Of a DNA stretch of 64,000 nt, positions 4,143-43,681 are shown in pieces. Position numbers and translations under genes: made by a program. The notes under the pieces are model-generated. The model was not told the DNA's origin and ran no database searches. It saw nothing but the letters and a program-made list of their open reading frames with translations. Origin of the DNA: Nonomuraea gerenzanensis (lineage in GTDB: Bacteria; Actinomycetota; Actinomycetes; Streptosporangiales; Streptosporangiaceae). The stretch is from the NCBI RefSeq assembly GCF_020215645.1, contig NZ_CP084058.1:6944001-7008000 (forward strand), given 5' to 3'. Within the stretch, counting starts at the first letter, position 1. Every line of letters starts with the position of its first letter.

Positions 4143-5725
4143 CCAGCGTGCGTCGGCTGCTGACGCTGCCCGGGTGGAGCGGCGTGGTGCGGGTGCTCGC
4201 CGGGGCGGCTGGGCTCGACGCGCCTGTACGTGCGGTGCGGCCCGTCGCCGATCCCGGGGCGGTCCATGATGTCGCCACTGGTGAGCTCATCGTCGTCACC
4301 GGCCCGCCGCTGGCCGCCGACTGGCGCTTGGACGCGCTTCTGCGCCGCGTGGTGGACGCGGGCGGCGCGGGCGTCGTCGTACCGGTGCGCGCGACGTGCG
4401 CGGACGCGGCGGACGGGGCGGACGCGAGCACAGGCACGGCAGGGGCGGGCGGCGGCGAGATGGCGCGGGCGACGTTGTTGCTGGCCGGCCGCCTCGGGTT
4501 GCCGTTGCTCGCAGCCGTGGCCGGCGACGCGCTGGAGCTGGTGGTAGCGGCGCGGCTGATGCTGGCCGAGCCCGAGATCGACCGCGCCCGTCTCGTGCTG
4601 GCCGCGCACCGGGCGTTCGACAACCGCACCAGCCCGCCCGAGGACGTGGCGCGCAGGCTGGGAGACCTGCTCGGGGTGCCGGTGGCGCTGCTGGACGACC
4701 GGGGGCAGCCGCTGGCCGGGGAGATCGCCGAGGCCGGGGCCGTGCGGGTGGACGAGTTCGTCGCGCAGCGGGTGACGCTGGCCGACGGGCTGCTGCTGGC
4801 GCAGCCGGTGTTGTTGCCGCAGCCGGCGCGGCCGACGCTCTGGCTGGTGGCCGAGCTGCGCGGGACGGCGGCGGCGCGGGCCGAGATCGTGCCGCCCGCC
4901 CTGGCCGTGGCGACCGCCGCCGTGCAGCGCTGGTTGCTGGCCCACCGCCTGGAGCTGGAGCGCGACGCGCGGGCCCGTACCGCGTTGCTGGGCGACCTGC
5001 TGCGGCTGGACGGCGAGCCCTCGGCGCAGCTGCGCAGGCGGGTGGCCGACGCGGGCTGGCAGCTCGGCGGCTGGCACGTCGGGCTGCGCATCGGCGCGGT
5101 GCCCACGCTCGACCTGGTGCCGTGGACGGCCGAGATCACGCGCGTCCTGCGCGCTGAGGGTGTCGAGGCCGTGGTGGTCGAGCACGGCGACGGCTGGACG
5201 GGCTGGACCACGTTCGGGCAGGAGCCGACCCCCGCGCGGGTGCGCACGCTGGCGTCCCGGCTGCGCGCCGCGCACCGGAAGCTGCGCGGCTCGATCGCCG
5301 ACCACATGGGGGTCGGCCGCCCGCACCCCTGGCCGGAGGGGCTGGCCGGCACGGTGGCGGAGGCCACGGACGCGGCCAGGCTGGCGGCGACCCGGCCCGA
5401 GGCGGGCTTCTTCCTGCAGGTGGACCAGCTCGGCATGGCGCAGCTCCTGCTGGAGTGGACCAGGACCGACACCTTCGAGCCCGCCGCCCGCGCGCTGCTC
5501 GCGCCCCTGCGCGAGCAGCCGGGCGACCTCGTGCGCACGTTGTCCACCTACCTGGACGCGGAGTCGTCGATCGCGGAGACCGCCGCCGTGCTGGGGGTGC
5601 ACCGCAACACCGTGGCCGCCCGCGTGGACCGGATCGAACGGCTGCTGGGGGTGGACCTCGGGCATCGGGACGAGCGGCTCGCCCTCCACCTGGCCTGCCG
5701 CACGGTCACCCTCCCCGGCCGCTGA
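4139..5725 (+). CDS. PucR family transcriptional regulator
   Basis: A 528-residue protein with the PucR layout. An N-terminal sensory domain (about 1-130, with the LIVVTGPPL strand) is followed by a central GGDEF-like region. The C-terminal helix-turn-helix lies at about 455-520 and includes VLGVHRNTVAARVDRIERLL. PucR-type activators control purine, gamma-aminobutyrate or related catabolic genes. The start overlaps the DUF917 stop (ATGA), so it is likely to control that operon in response to its substrate. The last codons lie within an array of 13-bp tandem repeats that continues past the stop. Confidence 0.85.
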   Translation: MTSVRRLLTLPGWSGVVRVLAGAAGLDAPVRAVRPVADPGAVHDVATGELIVVTGPPLAADWRLDALLRRVVDAGGAGVVVPVRATCADAADGADASTGTAGAGGGEMARATLLLAGRLGLPLLAAVAGDALELVVAARLMLAEPEIDRARLVLAAHRAFDNRTSPPEDVARRLGDLLGVPVALLDDRGQPLAGEIAEAGAVRVDEFVAQRVTLADGLLLAQPVLLPQPARPTLWLVAELRGTAAARAEIVPPALAVATAAVQRWLLAHRLELERDARARTALLGDLLRLDGEPSAQLRRRVADAGWQLGGWHVGLRIGAVPTLDLVPWTAEITRVLRAEGVEAVVVEHGDGWTGWTTFGQEPTPARVRTLASRLRAAHRKLRGSIADHMGVGRPHPWPEGLAGTVAEATDAARLAATRPEAGFFLQVDQLGMAQLLLEWTRTDTFEPAARALLAPLREQPGDLVRTLSTYLDAESSIAETAAVLGVHRNTVAARVDRIERLLGVDLGHRDERLALHLACRTVTLPGR

Positions 5726-5820
5726 GACCGGCCGCTGAGACCGGCCGCTGGAACCGGCCCGTCAGGTCGGCCCGTCAGATCGGCCCGTCAGATCGGCCCG
5801 TCAGATCGGCCCGTCAGATC
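5717..5820 (+). repeat. 13-bp tandem array, eight units, across the PucR stop codon
   Basis: Eight head-to-tail 13-base units. The first three are variants of ggccgctgagacc and the last five are variants of ggcccgtcagatc; a partial unit follows. The PucR stop (5723-5725) lies in the first unit and its TGA is copied in the second. The array fills the space between the convergent PucR and LacI genes. Thirteen is not a multiple of three, so the array is not coding. Confidence 0.93.
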
Positions 5821-5855
5821 GGTCAGGGAGAACGGCCGGGAAGGGACCGGGCCGG

Positions 5856-22655: not shown

Positions 22656-24949
<2,294 letters not shown>

Positions 24950-28834: not shown

Positions 28835-29911
28835 CTACGCGCGTGACTCCGGTGGCACGTAGTCGAAGGTGGGCCCGGCCACCGTGCCCTCCTTCGTGCC
28901 GTCCTCGTCGGGCATCGCCATCAGGGCGACGGCCTGGCCCTTGAGCCCGTACATGGTGCCGACGGCGGCGCCGAGCAGCTTGGGGTCGCCGTCGAAGGCC
29001 TGCTCGAGCTGGTTCAGCAGCGTGCAGTAGGTGCGGTTGAACTGCTCCTGCGCGACGCGGACGGCGCTGCCAGGGGCGTGGTCGGACAGCTTCGGGTCGG
29101 GCCGCATCGGCCGGACGGCGGCCAGGTTCACCTGGACCGGCTCGCCGGTGGGGCCGGACTGCGGGGTGTCGCCGCGCCGGTAGCGGCGGCCGAGCTTGAG
29201 CTCCATGAGGCGGTAGTAGTGGGCGACCTCGTCCCGGTCGGGGTGGAAGATGTCCTGGTCGCCGTCCCAGACCTCGCCCCTGGCGGTGCCCTCGCCCTGC
29301 TCGACGATCTCCTCCAGCGCGCCCAGCGCCGACTCCAGGTCCTCCACCGCGAACAGCGAGCCGGCGGTGTGCCGGAAGTGGGTGCCGCTCACCTGGCGGG
29401 CGGGGTCGCCGCTGAAGACGGCCTGCTCGCCGAGCTGCTCGCGCAGGTGCCGCAGCCCCTGCTCGACGGCGTCGTAGAACTGGCCGATCGTCTCGTAGCC
29501 GTCGCCCTCCGCCGGCGCGCCGGGGGGCGCCGGCTGCTCCAGGCGCAGGAACATCTCCAGCGCCCGCGGGCCGAACGGCAGCAGCGACAGCTCCAGGGAG
29601 CTGTGCGGCAGCCGCCGGGGGTAGGGCGGCAGCATCCGCGGCGTGTCGAGGCGCGGCCTGCCGCCCACGGCGTTGAGCAGGTTCGCGGCCAGGGCCAGGT
29701 GCAGCATCTCCTCGGCGAAGACGCTGCCCACGACCTCCACCGCGTCGGGGTTGCGCTCCGGGTCCAGCGAGTACAGCGCGCACAGGTACGAGGGCAGCGT
29801 CGCCTGCTCCAGCTCGATCGCCCACTGCAGGTGCTCGCGCAGGCTGTCGAGGGTGTCGATCGGGGCGGGCCCGGGAGCGGTGACGCTCTGCCCCGGTTCC
29901 AGGTTCTTCAT
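28835..29911 (-). CDS. Ferritin-like di-iron protein (VioB/RebD-type domain), paralogue A
   Basis: A 358-residue protein of the ferritin-like family that includes the C-terminal domain of the iminophenyl-pyruvate dimer synthase VioB. The ligand pattern of a di-iron four-helix bundle is visible: Glu in LQWAIELEQATLP (about 29-41), ExxH in FAEEMLHLALAANLL, Glu in LEEIVEQGEG, and ExxH in RDEVAHYYRLMELKLGRRY. It lacks the rest of VioB and there is no indole-oxidising partner nearby. It lies between WhiB and the symporter in operon A. The first about 325 residues are very similar to the first part of the protein at 36477-38222, so one arose by duplication. Reaction unknown. Confidence 0.82.
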   Translation of the reverse strand: MKNLEPGQSVTAPGPAPIDTLDSLREHLQWAIELEQATLPSYLCALYSLDPERNPDAVEVVGSVFAEEMLHLALAANLLNAVGGRPRLDTPRMLPPYPRRLPHSSLELSLLPFGPRALEMFLRLEQPAPPGAPAEGDGYETIGQFYDAVEQGLRHLREQLGEQAVFSGDPARQVSGTHFRHTAGSLFAVEDLESALGALEEIVEQGEGTARGEVWDGDQDIFHPDRDEVAHYYRLMELKLGRRYRRGDTPQSGPTGEPVQVNLAAVRPMRPDPKLSDHAPGSAVRVAQEQFNRTYCTLLNQLEQAFDGDPKLLGAAVGTMYGLKGQAVALMAMPDEDGTKEGTVAGPTFDYVPPESRA

Positions 29912-34966: not shown

Positions 34967-34996
34967 CACAGTGGCATCCGCCGGATGCCGGCTGTG
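34967..34996. promoter_or_regulatory. Inverted repeat in the ECF sigma leader
   Basis: The nested inverted repeat has outer arms cacag and ctgtg and inner arms ggcatcc and ggatgcc around gcc. It lies just upstream of the ribosome-binding site (ggag, 35000-35003) of the sigma gene in the LuxR/ECF divergent region. It could be an operator or an mRNA hairpin that affects translation. Confidence 0.5.
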
Positions 34997-35011
34997 AACG
35001 GAGTTGAGACC

Positions 35012-35671
35012 GTGAGTTTGCTGGAGTCGTACGCGAACCGCGTCGAGCAGACCGACGACCGCCCGATCAGCGGGTGGGACGGCGCCGCCGCCACGTTCGT
35101 CAGCGCCGCGCCCCGGCTCTACGCGATCGGCCTGCGCGTTCTGCAGGACGTCGGGGAGGCCGAGGACGTGGTGCAGGAGACGTGGCTGCGCTGGGCCAGG
35201 GCCAACCGCTCGATCGTGGCCAGCCCGGCCGCGTTCCTGGCGCTGACCACCACGAGGCTGGCCATCAATGTCACCCAGTCGGCGCGCAAACGCCGCGAGA
35301 CCTCGGCGGGGCCGTGGTTGCCGGAGACGCCTGACCCGTCCGTCAGCCCTGAGACGGCGGCCGAGCGGCATGAGGCCGTGGACGGCGCGATCCGGTTGAT
35401 GTTGCAGCGGCTGACCCCGGCGGAGCGGGCCGTCTACCTTCTGCGTACGGCCTTCGAGTATCCGTATCGGCAGATCGGCGAGGTGCTCCACCTGAGCGAG
35501 GAGCACACGCGGCAGCTCCTGCGGCGGGCCCGCCACCACCTCGCCACCGGACGGGTGCATCCGGTGAGCCGCGCCGCGCACCAGCGCCTCGTGCGCACCT
35601 TCCTCACCGCCGCCCGCACCGGGGACCTGGCCGCGCTGGAGAGCCTGCTCGCCGCCGACGTCGCGCGCTGA
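35012..35671 (+). CDS. ECF sigma factor, SigJ/ECF41-like, lacking most of the SnoaL-like domain
   Basis: A 219-residue sigma factor. Region 2 is about 20-85 (RLYAIGLRVLQDVGEAEDVV, WLRWARAN) and region 4 about 125-175 (LTPAERAVYLLRTAFEYPYR, LRRARHHLA). The linker GPWLPETPDPS is characteristic of SigJ/ECF41 proteins. Those normally continue with a SnoaL-like C-terminal domain of about 110 residues that controls activity. Here the protein ends in FLTAARTGDLAALESLLAAD plus three residues, after the first helix of that domain. I chose GTG 35012 because ggag lies 8 bases upstream; ATG 34985 is in the inverted repeat. It could recognise the TGTCACG-type elements of both operons. Confidence 0.83.
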   Translation: MSLLESYANRVEQTDDRPISGWDGAAATFVSAAPRLYAIGLRVLQDVGEAEDVVQETWLRWARANRSIVASPAAFLALTTTRLAINVTQSARKRRETSAGPWLPETPDPSVSPETAAERHEAVDGAIRLMLQRLTPAERAVYLLRTAFEYPYRQIGEVLHLSEEHTRQLLRRARHHLATGRVHPVSRAAHQRLVRTFLTAARTGDLAALESLLAADVAR

Positions 35672-35760: not shown

Positions 35761-36480
35761 TCAGCCGTCCGTGGCGCGGACGGCCTCGACGATGGTGGCG
35801 GTCACGGCGTCGGGCTCGGAGACGGCCAGCGCGTGCGAGGCGCCGGGGACCTCGCGGGTGCCGCGCGAGCCGGCCCGCTCGGCCATGAAACGCAACGCCG
35901 CGGCGGGGATGTTCAGATCACGCTCACCGTGCACGAACCACGACGGGATGCCGCGCCAGGCCGGCTCGGCCACCGTCGGCTCGTCCCGCAGCGCCCGCTC
36001 GGTGACCGGCCGCTGGGTCGCGGCCATCAGCGCGGCCTCACCGGCGTCCACGTCGGCACAGAACTGGTGGTGGAACTTCGCGGGGTCGATGCGGAACTCG
36101 TTCCCCCCGGACGCCACCGGGTAGGCGATCAGCGCCTCCCCCAGCGTGCTGCCCTCGAACTTGGCCGACAGCAGCAAGGCGCTCTCGCCCGGCTCGGGCG
36201 CGAAGGCGCCGACGTACACCAGGGCCCGCACGGCCGGGTCGCCGGCCGCCGCCTGGGTGATCACCATGCCGCCGTAGGAGTGGCCGGCCAGGACGACCGG
36301 CCGGCCGAGGCCGGCGATCACGTCGCGCACGTACGCGGCGTCCCCCTCGACGTCGCGCAGCGGGTTCGCCACCGCGACCGCCGACAGCCCATGGCCGTGC
36401 AGGCGCTTGATGACCCGGTTCCAAGAGGCCGACTCGGCGAAGGCGCCGTGCACCAGCACGACGACGGGCTGTTCGGTCAT
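35761..36480 (-). CDS. Alpha/beta hydrolase
   Basis: A 239-residue hydrolase of the esterase/aromatic-hydrolase type. It shows VVLVHGAFAESASW (oxyanion strand), the elbow LAGHSYGGMVITQA with catalytic Ser, WFVHGERDLNIP (Asp) and GASHALAVSEPD (His). ATG 36480 overlaps the stop of the ferritin-CDGSH fusion gene by ATGA. Last gene of operon B, ahead of a terminator hairpin. The substrate is not evident. Confidence 0.85.
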   Translation of the reverse strand: MTEQPVVVLVHGAFAESASWNRVIKRLHGHGLSAVAVANPLRDVEGDAAYVRDVIAGLGRPVVLAGHSYGGMVITQAAAGDPAVRALVYVGAFAPEPGESALLLSAKFEGSTLGEALIAYPVASGGNEFRIDPAKFHHQFCADVDAGEAALMAATQRPVTERALRDEPTVAEPAWRGIPSWFVHGERDLNIPAAALRFMAERAGSRGTREVPGASHALAVSEPDAVTATIVEAVRATDG

Positions 36481-38222
36481 GACGTCATTCCTTCTCTCGT
36501 GGTGAGTTGCTGATCGGCGGGTTGTTCCTCGTGGAAGCCGATCTCCCGGTGGGTGCCGTCGCACAGCGGCTTGTTGCCGGAGTGGCCGCAGCGGCACAGC
36601 GTCATCCGGTTGCGGGTCTCCAGCGGCACGCCGTCCGAGCGGACGACCGGCACCCCGCCCGTGACCCACAGCGCGCTGGCCAGCCCGTCCTCCTCCTCCA
36701 GGACCGAGATGGCCTGCGGCAGGTCGACCTCGACGCTCTCGCCGCCGCGCTCGATCGCGTAGCTGTAGGAGCCGGACGGGCAGTGGTCGATACGGCCCAT
36801 GACAGCCGAGCGCACGTCGCTGTCTTCGGTGTCGGCGAGCATCGCGGCGATCGGCCTGGTGCGGCCGATGCAGAAGGCGGCGTGGATGCACAGCTCCCCC
36901 ACCCGCTGCGCCGAGATGCCGACCCCGTCGTGCACGTGCTGCAACTCCCGGTACGGGCGCATGACCGCGGCCTCGGTGCCGTCGAAGCCGATCACGGCGT
37001 GCGTGCCGTCGCAGAACGGCTTGCTGCCCGAGTGGCCGCAGCGGCACAGCGCGTAGGTGTCCTCGGTCTCCAGCGGCTCGCCGGTCTGCCAGGTCAGCGC
37101 GTCGTCGCCGGAGGAGACGAGCTTGCGTTTGCGCCGGAGCGGGACGCTGCCGTACACCACGTACGGGCCGTCGCGCAGGACGACGACGCGCCGCTCGTCG
37201 CCGACGCTCCACCTGCGGCGCTCCGGCGCCACGTAGCGGAACGTGGGGCCGGCGCCCTGCTCCATCAGGGCCAGGGCCTGGGCCTTGAGCGCGTACATGG
37301 TGCCGGTGGCGACCGCGAGCAGCCTCGGGTTGCCGTCGAACGCCCGCTCCAGCAGGTGCAGGACGGCACCGTAGGTGTGGTCGAACTCGTCCTGGGCCTT
37401 GCGGACGGCGCTGCCCGGCTCGGCAGGGCGCGGGTTGACCGGCATCGGGCGCACCCCGGCCGGGTCCACCCGGACCGGCTCGCCGGTGGGGCCGGAGCCC
37501 GGGGTGTCGCCGCGCCGGTAGCGCCGGCCGAGCTTGAGCTCCTGGAACCGGTAGTAGTGGGCGACCTCGTCCCGCTCGGGGTGCAGGACGTCCTTGTCGC
37601 CGTCCCAGACCTCGCCGTGGGAGTTGCCCTCGCCCTGCTCGACGATCTCCTCCAGCGCCGCCAGCGCCGACTTCAGGTCGTGGACGGCGACGAGCCGGCC
37701 TGCGGTGTGCCGGAAGTGACCGGCGTGCACCTGGCGGGCCGGGTCGCCGGAGAAGACCACCTGCTCGCCGAGCCGGTCGCACAGCTCACGCAGCCCCAGC
37801 TCGATCGCGGCGTAGAACTGGCCGATCGTCTCGTAGTCGTCGCCCTCCGGCGCGGCCCCGGCGGGCGCCGGCCGTTCCAGCCGCAGGAACATCTCCAGCG
37901 CCTGCGCTCCGAAGGGCGCCAGGGACAGCTCCAGGGACCGGTCGCCGTGCGGCAGGCGCCGCGGATGCGGCGGGAGCATCCGCGGCGTGTCCAGGCGGGG
38001 CCGGCCGCCGACGGCGTTGAGCAGGTTCGCGGCCAGCGCCAGGTGCAGCATCTCCTCGGCGAAGACGCTGCCCACGATCGCGGCGGCCTCCGGGTTGCGC
38101 TCCCGGTCCAGCGAGTACAGCGCGCACAGGTACGGCGGGAGCGTCGCGTGCTCCAGCTCGATCGCCCACTGAAGGTGCTCACGCAGGCTGTCGAGCGTGC
38201 CGATCCGCGCCTCACGCGACAT
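36477..38222 (-). CDS. Ferritin-like di-iron protein fused to CDGSH, divergent 4Fe-4S and CDGSH domains (paralogue B)
   Basis: A 581-residue fusion. Residues 1 to about 320 are a VioB-type ferritin-like domain with the full ligand pattern (Glu in WAIELEHATLP, ExxH in EEMLH, Glu in LEEIVEQGEG, ExxH in DEVAHYYR), close to paralogue A. From about 355 a CDGSH iron-sulfur motif CRCGHSGSKPFCDGTH appears. A divergent 4Fe-4S single-cluster domain follows, with cysteines in ELCIHAAFCIGR and DHCPSGSYSYAIERGGE. A second CDGSH motif CRCGHSGNKPLCDGTH is near the end. So one chain could carry a di-iron site and three Fe-S clusters, suggesting an internally wired oxidoreductase. It overlaps the upstream acidic-protein gene by 11 bases and the downstream hydrolase by 4. 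I know of no characterised example. Confidence 0.85.
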   Translation of the reverse strand: MSREARIGTLDSLREHLQWAIELEHATLPPYLCALYSLDRERNPEAAAIVGSVFAEEMLHLALAANLLNAVGGRPRLDTPRMLPPHPRRLPHGDRSLELSLAPFGAQALEMFLRLERPAPAGAAPEGDDYETIGQFYAAIELGLRELCDRLGEQVVFSGDPARQVHAGHFRHTAGRLVAVHDLKSALAALEEIVEQGEGNSHGEVWDGDKDVLHPERDEVAHYYRFQELKLGRRYRRGDTPGSGPTGEPVRVDPAGVRPMPVNPRPAEPGSAVRKAQDEFDHTYGAVLHLLERAFDGNPRLLAVATGTMYALKAQALALMEQGAGPTFRYVAPERRRWSVGDERRVVVLRDGPYVVYGSVPLRRKRKLVSSGDDALTWQTGEPLETEDTYALCRCGHSGSKPFCDGTHAVIGFDGTEAAVMRPYRELQHVHDGVGISAQRVGELCIHAAFCIGRTRPIAAMLADTEDSDVRSAVMGRIDHCPSGSYSYAIERGGESVEVDLPQAISVLEEEDGLASALWVTGGVPVVRSDGVPLETRNRMTLCRCGHSGNKPLCDGTHREIGFHEEQPADQQLTTREGMTS

Positions 38223-38442
38223 GGTCGTCCGGCCGCGAGCCGTCCTCCAGCACCTCGACGGCGTCGAGCAGGCCGCGCAGCTCGATCTCCTCGCGTTCGG
38301 CGTCCGTCGGGTCGAACAGCCACTCGGTGACCGGCAGCTCGGCGACCTCTGCGGGACGGCTGGCCTCGGCCAGCGTCACCTCCGCCTCGATCTCGATCTC
38401 GAGCTCGTGCAGGAAGTCGTTCTCGTCCCTCGGAGCGCTCAT
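38212..38442 (-). CDS. Small acidic protein coupled to the ferritin-CDGSH fusion
   Basis: A 76-residue, strongly acidic protein starting at ATG 38442 (MSAPRDENDFLHELEIEIEA); five further upstream codons are possible. It has no cysteine and no membrane segment, and Asp plus Glu make up about a third of residues. A central TEWLFDPTDAEREEIELR separates two helix-like halves. Its stop lies 11 bases inside the fusion gene, so the two are translationally coupled, which suggests equal amounts and perhaps a complex. A RiPP-like precursor acted on by the iron enzyme is another idea. No known family. Confidence 0.65.
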   Translation of the reverse strand: MSAPRDENDFLHELEIEIEAEVTLAEASRPAEVAELPVTEWLFDPTDAEREEIELRGLLDAVEVLEDGSRPDDHVA

Positions 38443-38479
38443 CGTTCCTCCATCCATGACGTGCTTGGTGCCCGGCCGA

Positions 38480-38571: not shown

Positions 38572-39333
38572 CTACTTGCCCGTGCCGGTGCGGTCGAGCC
38601 ACTCGCGGTAGGTGATCGTGCCCAGCACGGCGGCGGCGTCGTCGAGCGGGACCAGCGACCGCTCGACCAGCTCGCTGCCGAAGTAGCGGGCGTGCGGGTC
38701 GGTGACCACCTCGCGCGGGTCGCCCCAGACCGCCAGCGCCTTGCGGAAGAACTCGTCCATCCGGTACTGCTGCGGCCCGGCGATCTCGACCCTGCCGTTC
38801 AGCGGCGTCCCCACCGCGGTCCTGCCGACCGCCGCGGCCACGTCGTCGCCCGCGATCGGCTGGAAGAGCACCGGCGCGACGTGCACCTTGCCGTCGCGGG
38901 TGGCCTCGTCGGCGATGCCGCGGGCGAACTCGAAGAACTGCGTCGAGTGCACCAGCGAGAACGGGACGCCCGACTTCTCGATCAGCCCCTCCTGGGCGAT
39001 CTTCGCCGCGAAGTAGCCGTTGTCCGGCATGCGCTCGGTGCCCACGATCGACACCGCGACGTGGTGGCCCACGCCCGCCGCCTTCTCCGCCTCCAGCAGG
39101 TTGCCCGTGGAGGTCTCGAAGAACTTCAGCACGGCCTCCCGCTCGAACGACGGTGAGTTCGACACGTCGACCACGACCTGCGCCCCGGTGAGCGCCTCGG
39201 CCAGGCCCTCCCCGGTGAGGGTGTTCACGCCGGTGTTCGGCGAGGCCGCCACCGCCTCGTGACCGTGCTCAGCCAGCTTGGCCACCAGCTTCGACCCGAT
39301 CAGACCGGTCCCTCCGATCACCACGATCTTCAT
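38572..39333 (-). CDS. NmrA-like NAD(P)-binding protein (atypical SDR)
   Basis: A 253-residue Rossmann-fold protein with the dinucleotide loop VVIGGTGLIGSKLVAKL (4-20), VVVDVSNSPSFEREAV and YFAAKIAQEGLIEKSGVPFS. This is the layout of NmrA/NAD(P)-binding proteins. The usual YxxxK catalytic pair is only partly kept (YFAAK). It lies 49 bases after the universal stress protein gene in operon B. Such proteins act as quinone or redox sensors or reductases; the role here is inferred. Confidence 0.87.
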   Translation of the reverse strand: MKIVVIGGTGLIGSKLVAKLAEHGHEAVAASPNTGVNTLTGEGLAEALTGAQVVVDVSNSPSFEREAVLKFFETSTGNLLEAEKAAGVGHHVAVSIVGTERMPDNGYFAAKIAQEGLIEKSGVPFSLVHSTQFFEFARGIADEATRDGKVHVAPVLFQPIAGDDVAAAVGRTAVGTPLNGRVEIAGPQQYRMDEFFRKALAVWGDPREVVTDPHARYFGSELVERSLVPLDDAAAVLGTITYREWLDRTGTGK

Positions 39334-39382: not shown

Positions 39383-40237
39383 TCAGCTATGACCGGACAG
39401 CCCCTCGGGCTCGTGACGGCTGCCGGAGAATTCCTGCGCGGTGAGCGGGACGATCGCCACCGGGCAGGCGGCGTGGTGCAGGACGTTCCGGCTGACCGAG
39501 CCGTGCAGCAGCGCGCTGAACTCGTGGCGGTGGTGGGAGCCGACGACGAGCAGGGACGCCCGGGCCGCGGCGTCCGTCAGCGCCTTGCCCGGGCGCCCGG
39601 TCAGGCTCTCCTGGTCGATCGTGACCGTGGGGAAGCGCTCCTGCCAGCGCGCCAGCTCCGGCTCCGCCAGGGGCGGGCCGCCGCGGTCGGCCACGTGCGC
39701 CAGCATCAGGGGATCGGCGGTGCGGGCGGCATGCGCGCAGGCGAAGTCGAGGACGGCCTCGCTCTCGCCGGGGTCGCCGATGCCCGCCACGACGGGCCCG
39801 TCCGGCCGGGCGGAGCCGCGTACGACCACGACGGGGCAGGCGGCCTCGGCGCCCAGCTTGGCGCCCACCGAGCCCAGCAGCAGACCGCCGACCTCGCCCA
39901 GCCCGCGGCTGCCCACGACGAGCAGCTCCGCCTGGCGCGAGTGGCGCAGCAGCACGGCGAACGCCTCGCCTTCCGGCAGCTCGGTCGTGATCCCGACCTC
40001 GGGCGCGACCATCCGCGCGCGGTCGCGGGCGGTCTCCAGGATGCGCTCGGCGGCGTGCCGGAGCCCGCCCTCCGGCGGTGCTCCCGGCGCCGGCCCCAGG
40101 GGTACGTTCATCAGGGGCCAGATGAAGGCGTGCACGATCAGCAGCGGCCGGCGGCGGCGTCCGGCCTCGGCGGCGGCCCACTCCACGGCCCGCAGGCTGT
40201 CCTCGGAGTCGTCCACGCCCACGGTTACAGGGCTCAT
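39383..40237 (-). CDS. Universal stress protein, two UspA domains
   Basis: A 284-residue tandem USP. Domain 1 has VTVGVDDSEDSLRAVEWA and the ATP-binding VVGSRGLGEVGGLLLGSVG; domain 2 has VVGSHHRHEFSALLHGSVS, with a changed loop. ATG 40237 lies 32 bases after the flavoprotein stop. Family proteins bind ATP and help survival in dormancy, hypoxia or oxidative stress. It is the second gene of operon B. Confidence 0.93.
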   Translation of the reverse strand: MSPVTVGVDDSEDSLRAVEWAAAEAGRRRRPLLIVHAFIWPLMNVPLGPAPGAPPEGGLRHAAERILETARDRARMVAPEVGITTELPEGEAFAVLLRHSRQAELLVVGSRGLGEVGGLLLGSVGAKLGAEAACPVVVVRGSARPDGPVVAGIGDPGESEAVLDFACAHAARTADPLMLAHVADRGGPPLAEPELARWQERFPTVTIDQESLTGRPGKALTDAAARASLLVVGSHHRHEFSALLHGSVSRNVLHHAACPVAIVPLTAQEFSGSRHEPEGLSGHS

Positions 40238-40269: not shown

Positions 40270-42000
40270 CTACTCGACGAGCTTGCCGGCGGTCGAGACC
40301 TCGCGCATGAGCGCCGCGATCTCGGCGGGGACCGGCGGGACGGCCTCGCGGGCCACGGCGCCGGGGCCGGACCACACGAGGTTGACCTGCAGCTCGGGGT
40401 CGAGGTCCGGATGGTCGGAGCGGTTGTGGCAGCCGCGGGTCTCGCGGCGTTCGAGCGCGGCCTCCATCGTCGCGCGGGCGGCGAGCGCCGCGGACTTCAG
40501 GTCGAAGGCGTGCGCCAGGTCCTGGAAACCGGCCAGGTCGGGGTGCACGCCCACCTCGCCCATCCGCGCCTCCAAGGCGGCGAGCTCGCCGAGCCCCGTC
40601 AGCAGGCCGTCCTCGTCGCGGACCACGCCGGCGTGCTCGGTCATGATGTCGCGCAGGGCGCGCTGCAGCGCCCGCACGTTCTCGGGGCCGTCGGCGGCGA
40701 GCAGCTCGTCCACCTCGGCCCTGGCCGCGCCGAGCGCGTCGGCCGAACGGCGCTGGGCCTCCAGGCCCGCGGAGTGCTCGGCCGCCGCCTGGCCGACGAT
40801 GCGGCCGTAGACGAGCAGCTCGATGAGCGAGTTGCCGCCCAGGCGGTTGGCGCCGTGCAGGCCGCTGGCCGCCTCGCCGATCGCGTACAGGCCGTCCACC
40901 CCGGTGCCGTGGTCCTCGGGGCGCACCCAGACGCCGCCCATCGAGTAGTGCGCGGTCGGCGCGATCTCGATCGGCTCCCTGGTGATGTCGAGCATCTGCA
41001 GCTCCAGCAGCGTCTGGTAGACGCGCGGCAGCCGCGTCATGATCGTCTCGCGCGGCAGGTGCGACACGTCCAGCCAGACGCCGCCCGCCGGGGTGCCGCG
41101 GCCCTGCTTGATCTCCGTGTACGCGGCCAGCGCGACCCTGTCTCTGGTGGACAGCTCCATCCGCTCCGGGTCGTAGCGCGCCATGAACCGCTCCCCCGCC
41201 GCGTTGCGCAGGATCCCGCCCTCGCCCCGCGCCGCCTCCGAGACGAGCGTGCCGGCCGCGTTCTCCGGCGCGATCAGCCCGGACGGGTGGAACTGCACCA
41301 GCTCGGGGTCGCGGATCCGGCAGCCGGCCAGGACCGCCAGGCGGAAGGAGTCGCCGGTGTTCTCGTCGCGCCGCGAGGAGGTGCGCCGCCAGATGCGGGT
41401 GTGTCCCCCGGTGGCCAGGATCACCGCGTCGGCGTGGATGACGTACCGGCTGCCGTCGGTGAGGTCGAACCCGTACGCGCCGAAGACCGCGTTGTCGCGG
41501 ACCAGCAGGCGCGTGACGTACACGGTGTCCAGGACGGGGATCGCGAGCTGCGCCGCGCGGTTGATCAGCGTGCGCTGGATCTCCAGCCCGGTGTAGTCGC
41601 CGGCGTAGGCGGTGCGCCGGTAGGTGTGCGCGCCGAAGAAGCGCAGCGAGATCCGGCCGTCCTGCTCGCGGGCGAACGGCATCCCGTACCGCTCCAGGTC
41701 CTGGATGCCGCGCGCCGCCCCCTCCGCGACTATCCGCACCGTCTCGGGATGGGCGAGCAGGTAGCTCTCCTTGAGGGTGTCCGCCGCGTGCTGCTGCCAG
41801 GTGTCCTCGGGGTCCATCGTCGCCAGCGCCGCGTTGATGCCGCCCGCCGCGAGCGTGGTGTGCGCGTCGGCCTTCGGCCGCTTGCCCACGGCCAGGACGT
41901 CCACGCCGCGCTCGGCCAGCTCGATCGCGGCCCGCAGCCCGGCTCCTCCCGTGCCGATGACCAGGACTGATGTGGCGATCCGCTGCTCCTGCGCGTGCAT
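40270..42000 (-). CDS. SdhA/FrdA-like FAD flavoprotein without SdhB/C partners
   Basis: A 576-residue flavoprotein of the succinate dehydrogenase/fumarate reductase/aspartate oxidase group. FAD binding is VLVIGTGGAGLRAAIELAER (13-32), followed by the HTTLAAGGINAAL loop that carries the covalent-FAD His in SdhA. Substrate-site segments are FFGAHTYRRTAYAGD and TAHYSMGGVWV, then GEAASGLHGANRLGGNSLIE. No iron-sulfur or membrane subunit gene is next to it. It heads operon B and is preceded by an ECF-like promoter. It may be a soluble fumarate-reductase-like or oxidase enzyme, perhaps with the Fe-S fusion protein of the same operon as electron partner (inference). Confidence 0.85.
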   Translation of the reverse strand: MHAQEQRIATSVLVIGTGGAGLRAAIELAERGVDVLAVGKRPKADAHTTLAAGGINAALATMDPEDTWQQHAADTLKESYLLAHPETVRIVAEGAARGIQDLERYGMPFAREQDGRISLRFFGAHTYRRTAYAGDYTGLEIQRTLINRAAQLAIPVLDTVYVTRLLVRDNAVFGAYGFDLTDGSRYVIHADAVILATGGHTRIWRRTSSRRDENTGDSFRLAVLAGCRIRDPELVQFHPSGLIAPENAAGTLVSEAARGEGGILRNAAGERFMARYDPERMELSTRDRVALAAYTEIKQGRGTPAGGVWLDVSHLPRETIMTRLPRVYQTLLELQMLDITREPIEIAPTAHYSMGGVWVRPEDHGTGVDGLYAIGEAASGLHGANRLGGNSLIELLVYGRIVGQAAAEHSAGLEAQRRSADALGAARAEVDELLAADGPENVRALQRALRDIMTEHAGVVRDEDGLLTGLGELAALEARMGEVGVHPDLAGFQDLAHAFDLKSAALAARATMEAALERRETRGCHNRSDHPDLDPELQVNLVWSGPGAVAREAVPPVPAEIAALMREVSTAGKLVE

Positions 42001-42043
42001 GGTGCTCCCTTTGACCCCGTCGGCGAACGCACTTCACCATCAA

Positions 42044-42070
42044 GACAGGACAGGGGCGGAAATCGTGACA
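42044..42070 (-). promoter_or_regulatory. ECF-like promoter of operon B
   Basis: On the minus strand: TGTCACG (42070-42064), 16 bases, TGTC (42047-42044), 44 bases ahead of the flavoprotein start. Identical first half and spacing to the site before operon A. Confidence 0.45.
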
Positions 42071-42148
42071 TGCCGGTTGCCGCGGCCGAGGAACAGCGCG
42101 GCCGTCACTGAGATCGGCTCGGCCTCGACGGCGGCAGGGCACTGCCCG

Positions 42149-42547
42149 TCAGGCGTCGGTGCGCCGCCGGTCAGCTCCCTCCGCGCGGACGAGGCCGAGC
42201 ATGTCCATGCTGCGCCAGGCTTCCACGATCTTGCCTGCCTCGAACCTGTCTATGGTGATTCCCGCCACGCTACGGAGCGTTCCGTCGCGGGTCATGGCGG
42301 CGACCCAGCGCGTGGCGACCCGGTCGCCTTCGGCGATCTGATCCTCGACGCGGATGTCGAGATCCGGATAGAGCCGACGGCTGCTCTCGATGGCCTTCTT
42401 CAGCCCGGCCAGCCCTTCGCCGCCGTGTGGGTCGTACGGGTCGTGATGCACCGCGTCCGGCGCGATGATCTCATCGAGCCTGCCGAGATCACCGGTGTTC
42501 CAGACGCTGAACACCGTACGCGCGGCCGCCTTGTTCCGTTCGGACAC
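42149..42547 (-). CDS. SnoaL-like polyketide cyclase/ester cyclase family protein
   Basis: A 132-residue NTF2-fold protein: FSVWNTGDLGRLDEIIAPDA, then HHDPYDPHGGEGLAGLKKAI, and IAEGDRVATRWVAAMTRDG with a terminal IVEAWRSMDMLGLV. It starts with GTG 42547. It stands alone upstream of operon B and diverges from the integrase gene. Interestingly, the nearby ECF sigma factor lacks its own SnoaL-like domain, but this protein is of the ester-cyclase subtype, so a replacement role is speculative. Confidence 0.85.
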   Translation of the reverse strand: MSERNKAAARTVFSVWNTGDLGRLDEIIAPDAVHHDPYDPHGGEGLAGLKKAIESSRRLYPDLDIRVEDQIAEGDRVATRWVAAMTRDGTLRSVAGITIDRFEAGKIVEAWRSMDMLGLVRAEGADRRRTDA

Positions 42548-42709
42548 CAGTCTGCTTCCTCACGAGAGTCAGGGACCCGATCAGTTCACGAGCAAGCCTC
42601 CTCTCCGGGCCGCGCCCGGGCAAGTATCTCGTCGAGGACGACCTCCGGCCAGGGCCCTTCTGAGCGGCGGCCTGGGCGGGTCGGCGCTGGCCCTTCTAAG
42701 ATCGTTCGG

Positions 42710-43681
42710 GTGAGCCTGCCTGCCCTTTCCGTGCCGGGGGCGCCGCCGGTCGAGCCGGCGCGTGACCCGTACCACGTCTATCTCGACTCCCTGACCAGCC
42801 CCGAGTCGCGGCGCACGATGCGTGGCTGTCTCGACCGGCTGGCCCGGCTGCTGACCGGCGACGAGAGCGCGACGGGGGCGGGCCAGCCGTGGCACCTGCT
42901 GCGTTACGAGCACACCGTACGGATCCGGACGATGCTCACCGATCAGGGCTGGTCGGCGGCGTACGTGAACAAGCATCTGGTGGCGTTGCGGCGGGTGCTG
43001 AAGGAGGCGTGGCGGCTGGGGCAGACCAGCGCCGAGGACCTCGCCCGCGCCTCCGACCTGGCCCCCGTACGCCAGAGCCGCCTGCCCACCGGGCACCACG
43101 TGCCGCCCGAGGTGGTGGGTGCGGCGCTGTCGGCGTGCGACGACTCGCCCGCCGGCGTGCGCGACGCGGCGCTGATCGCCGTCCTGTACTCGACCGGGTG
43201 CCGCCGTGCCGAGCTCGGCGGGCTGACGCTGGCCGACTACGATCCGGGGTCGCGGTCGTTGCGGGTGCGGGGCAAGCGTGACAAGGAGCGGCTGGTCTAC
43301 CTGACGACCGATGCGATCGGGCTGGTGGAGCGGTGGCTGGCGGTGCGCGGGCCGGGGGCTGGGGCGCTGTTCAGCCCGATCAGCAAGGCGGGGCGGCTGC
43401 GTACGCGTGACGGGCGGCCCGTGGGGCTGACGGGGCAGGGCATCGCGGACATTTTGGCCCGGAGGTTCGGGGAGGCGGGGGCGGCGCGGCGGACCGCGCA
43501 TGACTTCCGGCGGACGTTCATCGGAGAGCTGCTGGACGCGGGGGTGGACCTGGCGACGGCGCAGGCTCTGGTGGGGCACGCCTCGCCGGCCACCACGGCG
43601 CGCTACGATCGGCGGCCCGAGCGGACGCGCCGCGAAGCCGTCGACCGCCTGCGCCTCCCGGCCGCCCGGCCCCTGGCCTGA
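42710..43681 (+). CDS. Tyrosine recombinase / integrase (XerC/D-like)
   Basis: A 323-residue site-specific recombinase. An N-terminal SAM-like domain (about 15-110) is followed by the catalytic domain. All catalytic residues are visible: Arg165 (TGCRRAELGGL), His264 and Arg267 (HDFRR), His290 (LVGHASPATTARYD) and Tyr299. GTG 42710 is the likely start. There are no phage or transposon genes around it. A 13-bp tandem array begins ten bases after the stop. It may be a remnant of a mobile element or a XerC-like resident protein; no att site pair was found. Confidence 0.92.
   Translation: MSLPALSVPGAPPVEPARDPYHVYLDSLTSPESRRTMRGCLDRLARLLTGDESATGAGQPWHLLRYEHTVRIRTMLTDQGWSAAYVNKHLVALRRVLKEAWRLGQTSAEDLARASDLAPVRQSRLPTGHHVPPEVVGAALSACDDSPAGVRDAALIAVLYSTGCRRAELGGLTLADYDPGSRSLRVRGKRDKERLVYLTTDAIGLVERWLAVRGPGAGALFSPISKAGRLRTRDGRPVGLTGQGIADILARRFGEAGAARRTAHDFRRTFIGELLDAGVDLATAQALVGHASPATTARYDRRPERTRREAVDRLRLPAARPLA

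Follow-up and report, generated by a model that had tools for sequence, protein, structure and literature searches.

Proteins with the order CDGSH-DUF1271-CDGSH, which is also found in the protein studied here, have been described as type 7 CISDs, subtype CDC (Lin et al. 2011, PMC3174974), and bacterial CDGSH domains occur both with Fer4_19 and with ferritin-like domains (Sci Rep 2018, PMC5859297). For the type 7 CISDs, the accessible portions of these two papers give a domain plan but say nothing of a function; the word ferritin is absent from the main text of the first, and the text of the second only names CDGSH together with ferritin-like domains, giving no function, while its Figure 2 may draw the four-part order. 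Rubrerythrin, like our protein, unites a ferritin-fold di-iron domain with a fused electron-transfer iron domain, and according to the available part of the source its reduced di-iron site, with the fused one-electron carrier, reduces H2O2 (PMC12288474). The rubrerythrin carrier is a rubredoxin [Fe(SCys)4] domain, whereas the protein described here has two CISDs and a three-cysteine module. VioB and other PF12902 proteins, among them CC_0557 (structure 3hl1), have the ferritin-like domain in common with it; VioB is described, in the accessible text, as a biosynthetic enzyme with heme b and catalase activity that acts downstream of the flavin oxidase VioA (PMC9705886).

The window analysed here, a 64,000-nucleotide stretch of the Nonomuraea gerenzanensis genome (NZ_CP084058.1, positions 6,944,001 to 7,008,000), encodes a protein in which a ferritin-like domain is fused to such a CDGSH-containing part (Table 1). 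This architecture is real and conserved. The single 581-residue chain claimed by the earlier note was recovered as an ATG-start open reading frame with the Pfam domains in the claimed order: PF12902 scored 221 bits (cut-off 22.3), zf-CDGSH matched two stretches (E 2.6e-33) and Fer4_19 reached 19.6 bits where the cut-off is 24. Two CDGSH modules flank this sub-threshold Fer4_19 match, as in subtype CDC of the type 7 CISDs, DUF1271 being presumably the same domain as Fer4_19. The matching part of the fusion is 31-46% identical to 57 other CDGSH-module loci (L030-L088, minus L041 and L049), in which, unlike in the fusion, a ferritin-like part was not found (no match at E 1e-4); as a rule the CDGSH module thus acts on its own, which speaks against a general link between the two parts. 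Parts of the architecture are already known, as type 7 CISD since 2011 and as CDGSH with a ferritin-like domain since 2018. The open-licence literature yielded no characterised enzyme with this domain order, in agreement with the earlier note, and no functional study of the architecture; nor did it yield reports on CDGSH together with VioB, on CDGSH with Streptomyces and biosynthetic gene clusters, or on GMC oxidoreductase with a ferritin-like protein and hydrogen peroxide.

Table 1. Features of the fusion locus, with positions in the window.
Feature	Positions	Strand	Basis or remark
Ferritin-like-only paralogue (PF12902, 358 aa)	28835..29911	-	76% identical to fusion residues 5-337
ECF sigma factor	34985..35671	+	SigX4/SigJ models nearest, below cut-offs
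Alpha/beta hydrolase (PF12697)	35761..36480	-	start codon overlaps fusion stop as ATGA
Fusion protein: ferritin-like (PF12902) + CDGSH + Fer4_19 + CDGSH	36477..38222	-	581 aa, ATG start
CDGSH module 2, about residues 504-565; C543, C545, C554, H558	36528..36713	-	Pfam stretch, residues, strands; boundary approximate
Fer4_19 module, residues 442-489; C445, C451, C481 (CxxAxxC...CP)	36756..36899	-	sub-threshold Pfam and alignment
CDGSH module 1, residues 351-409; C393, C395, C404, H408	36996..37172	-	Pfam and alignment
PF12902 ferritin-like domain, residues 17-230	37533..38174	-	Pfam, E 2.3e-65
Small acidic protein, 75-81 aa, most constant neighbour	38212..38457	-	comparison of loci, alignments
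NmrA-like NAD(P)-binding protein	38572..39333	-	Pfam
Universal stress protein (PF00582)	39383..40237	-	Pfam
SdhA/FrdA-like flavoprotein	40270..42000	-	family scans, alignment with SdhA
SnoaL-like	42149-42547	-	family scan

After removal of loci with the same DNA, the ferritin-like part was followed directly by the CDGSH part in 26 of 46 loci; together with L049 these make a fusion set of 27, window included and close relatives counted separately. Our script found one open frame over both parts in 23 of the 27 distinct loci. L151 is the 24th: the script scored it as containing stops, since the matched stretch runs past the stop codon of the gene, but it reads as one open frame. Across the compared stretch its DNA is identical to that of L010. 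A frameshift joining two genes, or chance motifs, which the earlier note had named as the case against the fusion, can therefore be rejected, given the one-frame loci (24 of 27) and the invariant cysteines described below. L018, L090 and L091 have two overlapping open frames instead of one: in the three Streptomyces the ferritin frame ends at the TGA of a GTGA, the GTG of which starts the CDGSH frame. A tree of 100 CDGSH-module rows, which contained two of the three split records, places them inside the fused group (20 rows, 99/96; 18 rows, 95/80), and the split genes therefore look like products of fission of the fusion. The rows of L049, L025 and G230 have long branches and an unsure placement in this tree.

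Outside the window's family, the full order as one open frame was present in three loci of the genome collection, from Nocardioides (L016, 62%), Aliiroseovarius (L025, 47%) and a Ktedonobacteraceae MAG (L049, 28%). Near full-length matches were found in 16 of 200 family genomes, own genome included (best 6 candidates per genome), and among 396 phylum genomes in the own genome only (best 3 candidates per genome). Genome G230, from another class of the phylum, shows the reverse of the fusion order: a CDGSH-Fer4_19-CDGSH gene (L143, 5376-7129, minus strand) with a PF12902 gene, 30% identical to the paralogue of the window, two bases downstream on the same strand. The CDGSH row of G230 sits beside the fused group in the tree (97/78), so this linkage need not be an independent event. 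The split version and the reverse-ordered neighbouring pair offer natural controls for the fusion.

The iron-sulfur alignment comprised the window and 46 of 52 screened loci, drawn from a set of 80, the six with a stop in the matched stretch being left out. Of its 47 rows, 8 come from ferritin-only loci, and the other 39 were scored for cysteines. Both CDGSH motifs (Cys-x-Cys...Cys...His) are complete, as had been claimed, with C393, C395, C404 and H408 of the first and C543, C545, C554 and H558 of the second invariant in 39/39 rows, as are C445, C451 and C481 of the Fer4_19 module. Fer4_19 exceeds the cut-off in three of five other ferritin-CDGSH loci scanned (L016, 25.9; L025, 37.2; L049, 73.8 bits) and falls below it in two (L009, 19.3; L018, 22.6 bits); because of these three loci and the invariant cysteines we take the module as real. 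The divergent mid-chain domain of the earlier note is thus present, but the [4Fe-4S] cluster assigned to it is less likely than a [3Fe-4S] one. The module reads C445-I-H-A-A-F-C451 ... C481-P482, which agrees with the [3Fe-4S] motif CXXA/GXXC(X)nCP; the four-cysteine pattern CXXCXXC(X)nCP was not found, since only three cysteines are invariant among the 39 rows. The variable motif position is occupied by Thr in L019 and L021 and by Ser in L049. In the available part of a ferredoxin study (PMC6237146), the four-cysteine pattern marks [4Fe-4S] and the Ala/Gly pattern [3Fe-4S] ferredoxins, and all the CXX?XXC(X)nCP variants examined there carried [3Fe-4S] clusters, although a variant from Pyrococcus with Asp can hold a [4Fe-4S] cluster when oxygen is absent. 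Those ferredoxins share the three cysteines and the Ala at the variable position with our module, but are free-standing P450 partners, whereas the fusion's module sits between two CISDs. It is on the three-cysteine motif and on the clusters stated there that the predicted [3Fe-4S] cluster is based.

The ferritin-like domain has a candidate di-iron site of four Glu and two His, which bears out the earlier statement that a VioB-type domain keeps all the ligands. Among aligned PF12902 family members, many of them close relatives, E24, E57, H60, E116 and E198 are invariant in 32/32 rows and H222 in 31/31, the 3hl1 fragment ending short of H222. The structure 3hl1 is the sole match to the fusion model at Foldseek E <= 0.001, aligning with residues 3-329 at 27% identity; its chain has 317 residues and leaves the CDGSH part of the fusion unmatched. 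All fold matches listed for the model come from the ferritin domain and are thus uninformative on the CDGSH part. No rubredoxin or rubrerythrin family matched the fusion in the Pfam scan (E <= 0.01).

A ferritin fold next to CDGSH domains could also indicate iron or cluster handling, in which the ferritin-like domain would oxidise and park iron and the CDGSH domains donate labile clusters. The predicted ferritin fold of the model is in line with this, and CISDs can transfer electrons or whole clusters, labile-cluster donation being stated for human CISD1 and CISD2 in the accessible text (PMC5859297). We nevertheless regard this role as improbable, as no cluster-assembly family occurs among the neighbours scanned and the only structural match is 3hl1. 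To our knowledge, moreover, PF12902 is not a cage-forming ferritin.

As a tentative best explanation, somewhat short of an even chance, we propose that the fusion is a self-contained di-iron enzyme, either a peroxidase or an oxygen reductase, in which the iron-sulfur clusters form an internal relay, by analogy with rubrerythrin, which fuses a di-iron site to a one-electron carrier. Established in this explanation are the conserved chain, the invariance of the candidate ligands and the fold prediction, whereas we infer iron in the site, the cluster types, the direction of electron flow, the substrate and the role of the small protein. An external reductant would load the CDGSH [2Fe-2S] and the [3Fe-4S]-type clusters, these would hand electrons singly, within the same chain, to the ferritin-fold di-iron site, and the latter would reduce H2O2 or, with less likelihood, O2. 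A likely partner is the small acidic helical protein encoded directly ahead of the fusion, which may serve in docking, in stability or in recruiting a reductase. Whether a CISD can pass electrons to a di-iron site could be tested here within one chain. Several facts count against the peroxidase reading: the characterised relative VioB is biosynthetic, with heme b and catalase activity; the 57 other CDGSH-module loci lack a ferritin-like match; and no reductase is constant in the fusion neighbourhood.

The surroundings of other PF12902 genes bear on the substrate. We viewed 13 annotated plasmid loci, from 172 and 164 matched records, the 13 being a hand-picked part of the 164 and largely from related Alphaproteobacteria; the records label the PF12902 genes just 'ferritin-like protein' or 'ferritin-like domain-containing protein'. 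A GMC oxidoreductase gene lies directly before the PF12902 gene in seven of them (in Bradyrhizobium a short fragment only), a LodA/GoxA oxidase gene directly after it in one, and in another single locus a tyrosinase gene is separated from it by about 0.8 kb and one intervening gene. GMC oxidases yield H2O2. Fungal lodA loci also contain PF12902 genes, according to the available part of the source (PMC4417212). Because PF12902 genes and VioB accompany oxidases that yield H2O2, a peroxide-facing role of the ferritin-like domain is favoured; the four of 13 loci with no named oxidase, and the one with only a tyrosinase, count against the peroxidase reading. In Azospirillum and Mycetohabitans, large hypothetical genes (611-675 aa; L156, L158, L161, L164) stand directly before PF12902 genes, and the three scanned (L156, L161, L164) gave no Pfam match.

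The GMC or LodA oxidases beside related PF12902 genes in 8/13 plasmid loci would also suit the main rival, a VioB/StaD-like biosynthetic enzyme whose ferritin-like domain oxidises or couples the reactive intermediate of a flavin oxidase, while the fused clusters supply or remove electrons and the remaining steps of the pathway fall to the hydrolases and the NmrA protein. In NCBIfam the fusion matches TIGR04492 (VioB) alone (residues 36-201), and the SdhA-like flavoprotein, NmrA and alpha/beta hydrolase genes are close by; the adjoining hydrolases suit small-molecule metabolism as well as detoxification, which counts against the peroxidase reading. The VioB profile, however, has 1003 positions and a cut-off of 1250, of which the fusion reaches 29 bits, so it is not VioB; most fusion loci have no flavoprotein gene in the flank available for comparison, and no NRPS, PKS or terpene synthase family occurs among the cluster genes scanned. 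We therefore consider a biosynthetic role rather unlikely, while keeping it as the main competitor.

The flavoprotein aligns with SdhA across the FAD and active-site motifs. That it lacks an iron-sulfur partner, as the earlier note stated, agrees with our scan, in which no SdhB-like gene was found among the neighbouring genes. The electron-transfer pair suggested on that basis would be a soluble dicarboxylate:oxygen oxidoreductase in which the fusion clusters replace SdhB and the di-iron site replaces the quinone. SdhB carries three clusters, as does the predicted fusion, and both genes lie on the same strand of the same gene row, with three genes between. The pairing is weak at best, though: counted upstream, on the fusion's strand and within 8 kb, an intact flavoprotein gene occurs in 4 of the 24 loci with at least 5 kb, window included. 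Searched as whole genomes, 8 of the 17 that carry the fusion have a flavoprotein match at E <= 1e-100, with no such match in the other 9. An any-orientation view of the flanks adds only flavoprotein pieces in L017. These numbers rule out an obligate partner. The flavoprotein also lies near ferritin-like genes without a CDGSH part in 3 of 9 such loci (L023, L027, L029), and it therefore seems to be tied to the ferritin-like domain and not to the iron-sulfur wiring, leaving the pair very unlikely. The flavoprotein matches upstream of the fusion in L017 (about 6.3-6.8 kb) and L107 are short pieces in several frames. Elsewhere (G122:C1:4499112-4502082), about 70 bases separate a flavoprotein gene from a second ferritin-like match behind it (56%, query 3-410), which seems to retain the first CDGSH module only.

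The earlier note had overlooked both the most constant neighbour, the small acidic protein, and the ferritin-only paralogue. The stop of the small frame overlaps the fusion start by 11 bases, and the protein is present in 18 of the 25 loci that offer 1.4 kb or more of upstream DNA and in 17 of the 24 that offer at least 5 kb, window included in both; the 7/25 loci where it was not found include the most distant fusions. It is not quite exclusive to the fusion, as the ferritin-only locus L022 has a copy (75%; 5610-5834), about 2.2 kb ahead of the ferritin-only gene. It has no Pfam or NCBIfam match above cut-off, and is modelled as a helical hairpin (residues 12-32 and 50-72; pLDDT 77, pTM 0.59) with no useful fold match (best PDB match E 1.9). 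Its constancy, the overlap with the fusion start in the window and the invariant P42, W46, D49 and P50 might suggest a ribosomal peptide that the fusion oxidises and the adjoining hydrolases trim. Such a substrate is extremely unlikely, since conservation covers the greater part of the protein and leaves no variable core, the predicted fold is a helical hairpin, no peptidase family was found among the neighbours scanned, and several fusion loci lack it. A broader possibility, which we put forward with less confidence than the peroxidase reading, is a new class of Fe-S-wired di-iron oxidoreductase, with the type 7 CISD as the built-in reductase arm of the PF12902 site and the 75-residue helical protein as a dedicated subunit. 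If true, it would give type 7 CISDs, here joined to PF12902, and many uncharacterised PF12902 proteins their first biochemical role.

The remaining neighbours are less constant. On the minus strand the order is SnoaL-like, flavoprotein, universal stress, NmrA-like, small acidic, fusion and alpha/beta hydrolase. A near full-length NmrA homologue lies upstream in 10 of the 24 loci with at least 5 kb, window included, whereas the universal stress gene recurs, among the loci compared, in L009 and L011 only, which counts against the peroxidase reading. In the available part of the literature the ECF41 pattern includes an NmrA-type neighbour (PMC3426412), and ECF factors with a SnoaL_2 domain lie downstream of the fusion in L010 and L144. 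The ECF factor of the window has 228 aa, against 281-293 for the SigX4/SigJ models. The ECF41 site TGTCACA-N15-18-CGTC does not occur in the whole window, where TGTCACA alone is found twice (12996, 59684) against 3.65 expected by chance, and in the window and nine loci the 5.5 kb ahead of the fusion contain no relaxed form of the motif either. Control of the operon by a SigJ-like sigma factor is thus unsupported, and the missing motif also counts against the peroxidase reading. The paralogue adjoins a sodium:solute symporter gene, a pair that recurs in L009, L019 and L021. Just past the operon head, an open frame at 41771-43681 (plus strand) resembles a tyrosine recombinase by eye over about 42600-43681, and a predicted rifampin monooxygenase of the public record (about 23348-24796, minus strand) matches Streptomyces venezuelae rox at 70%.
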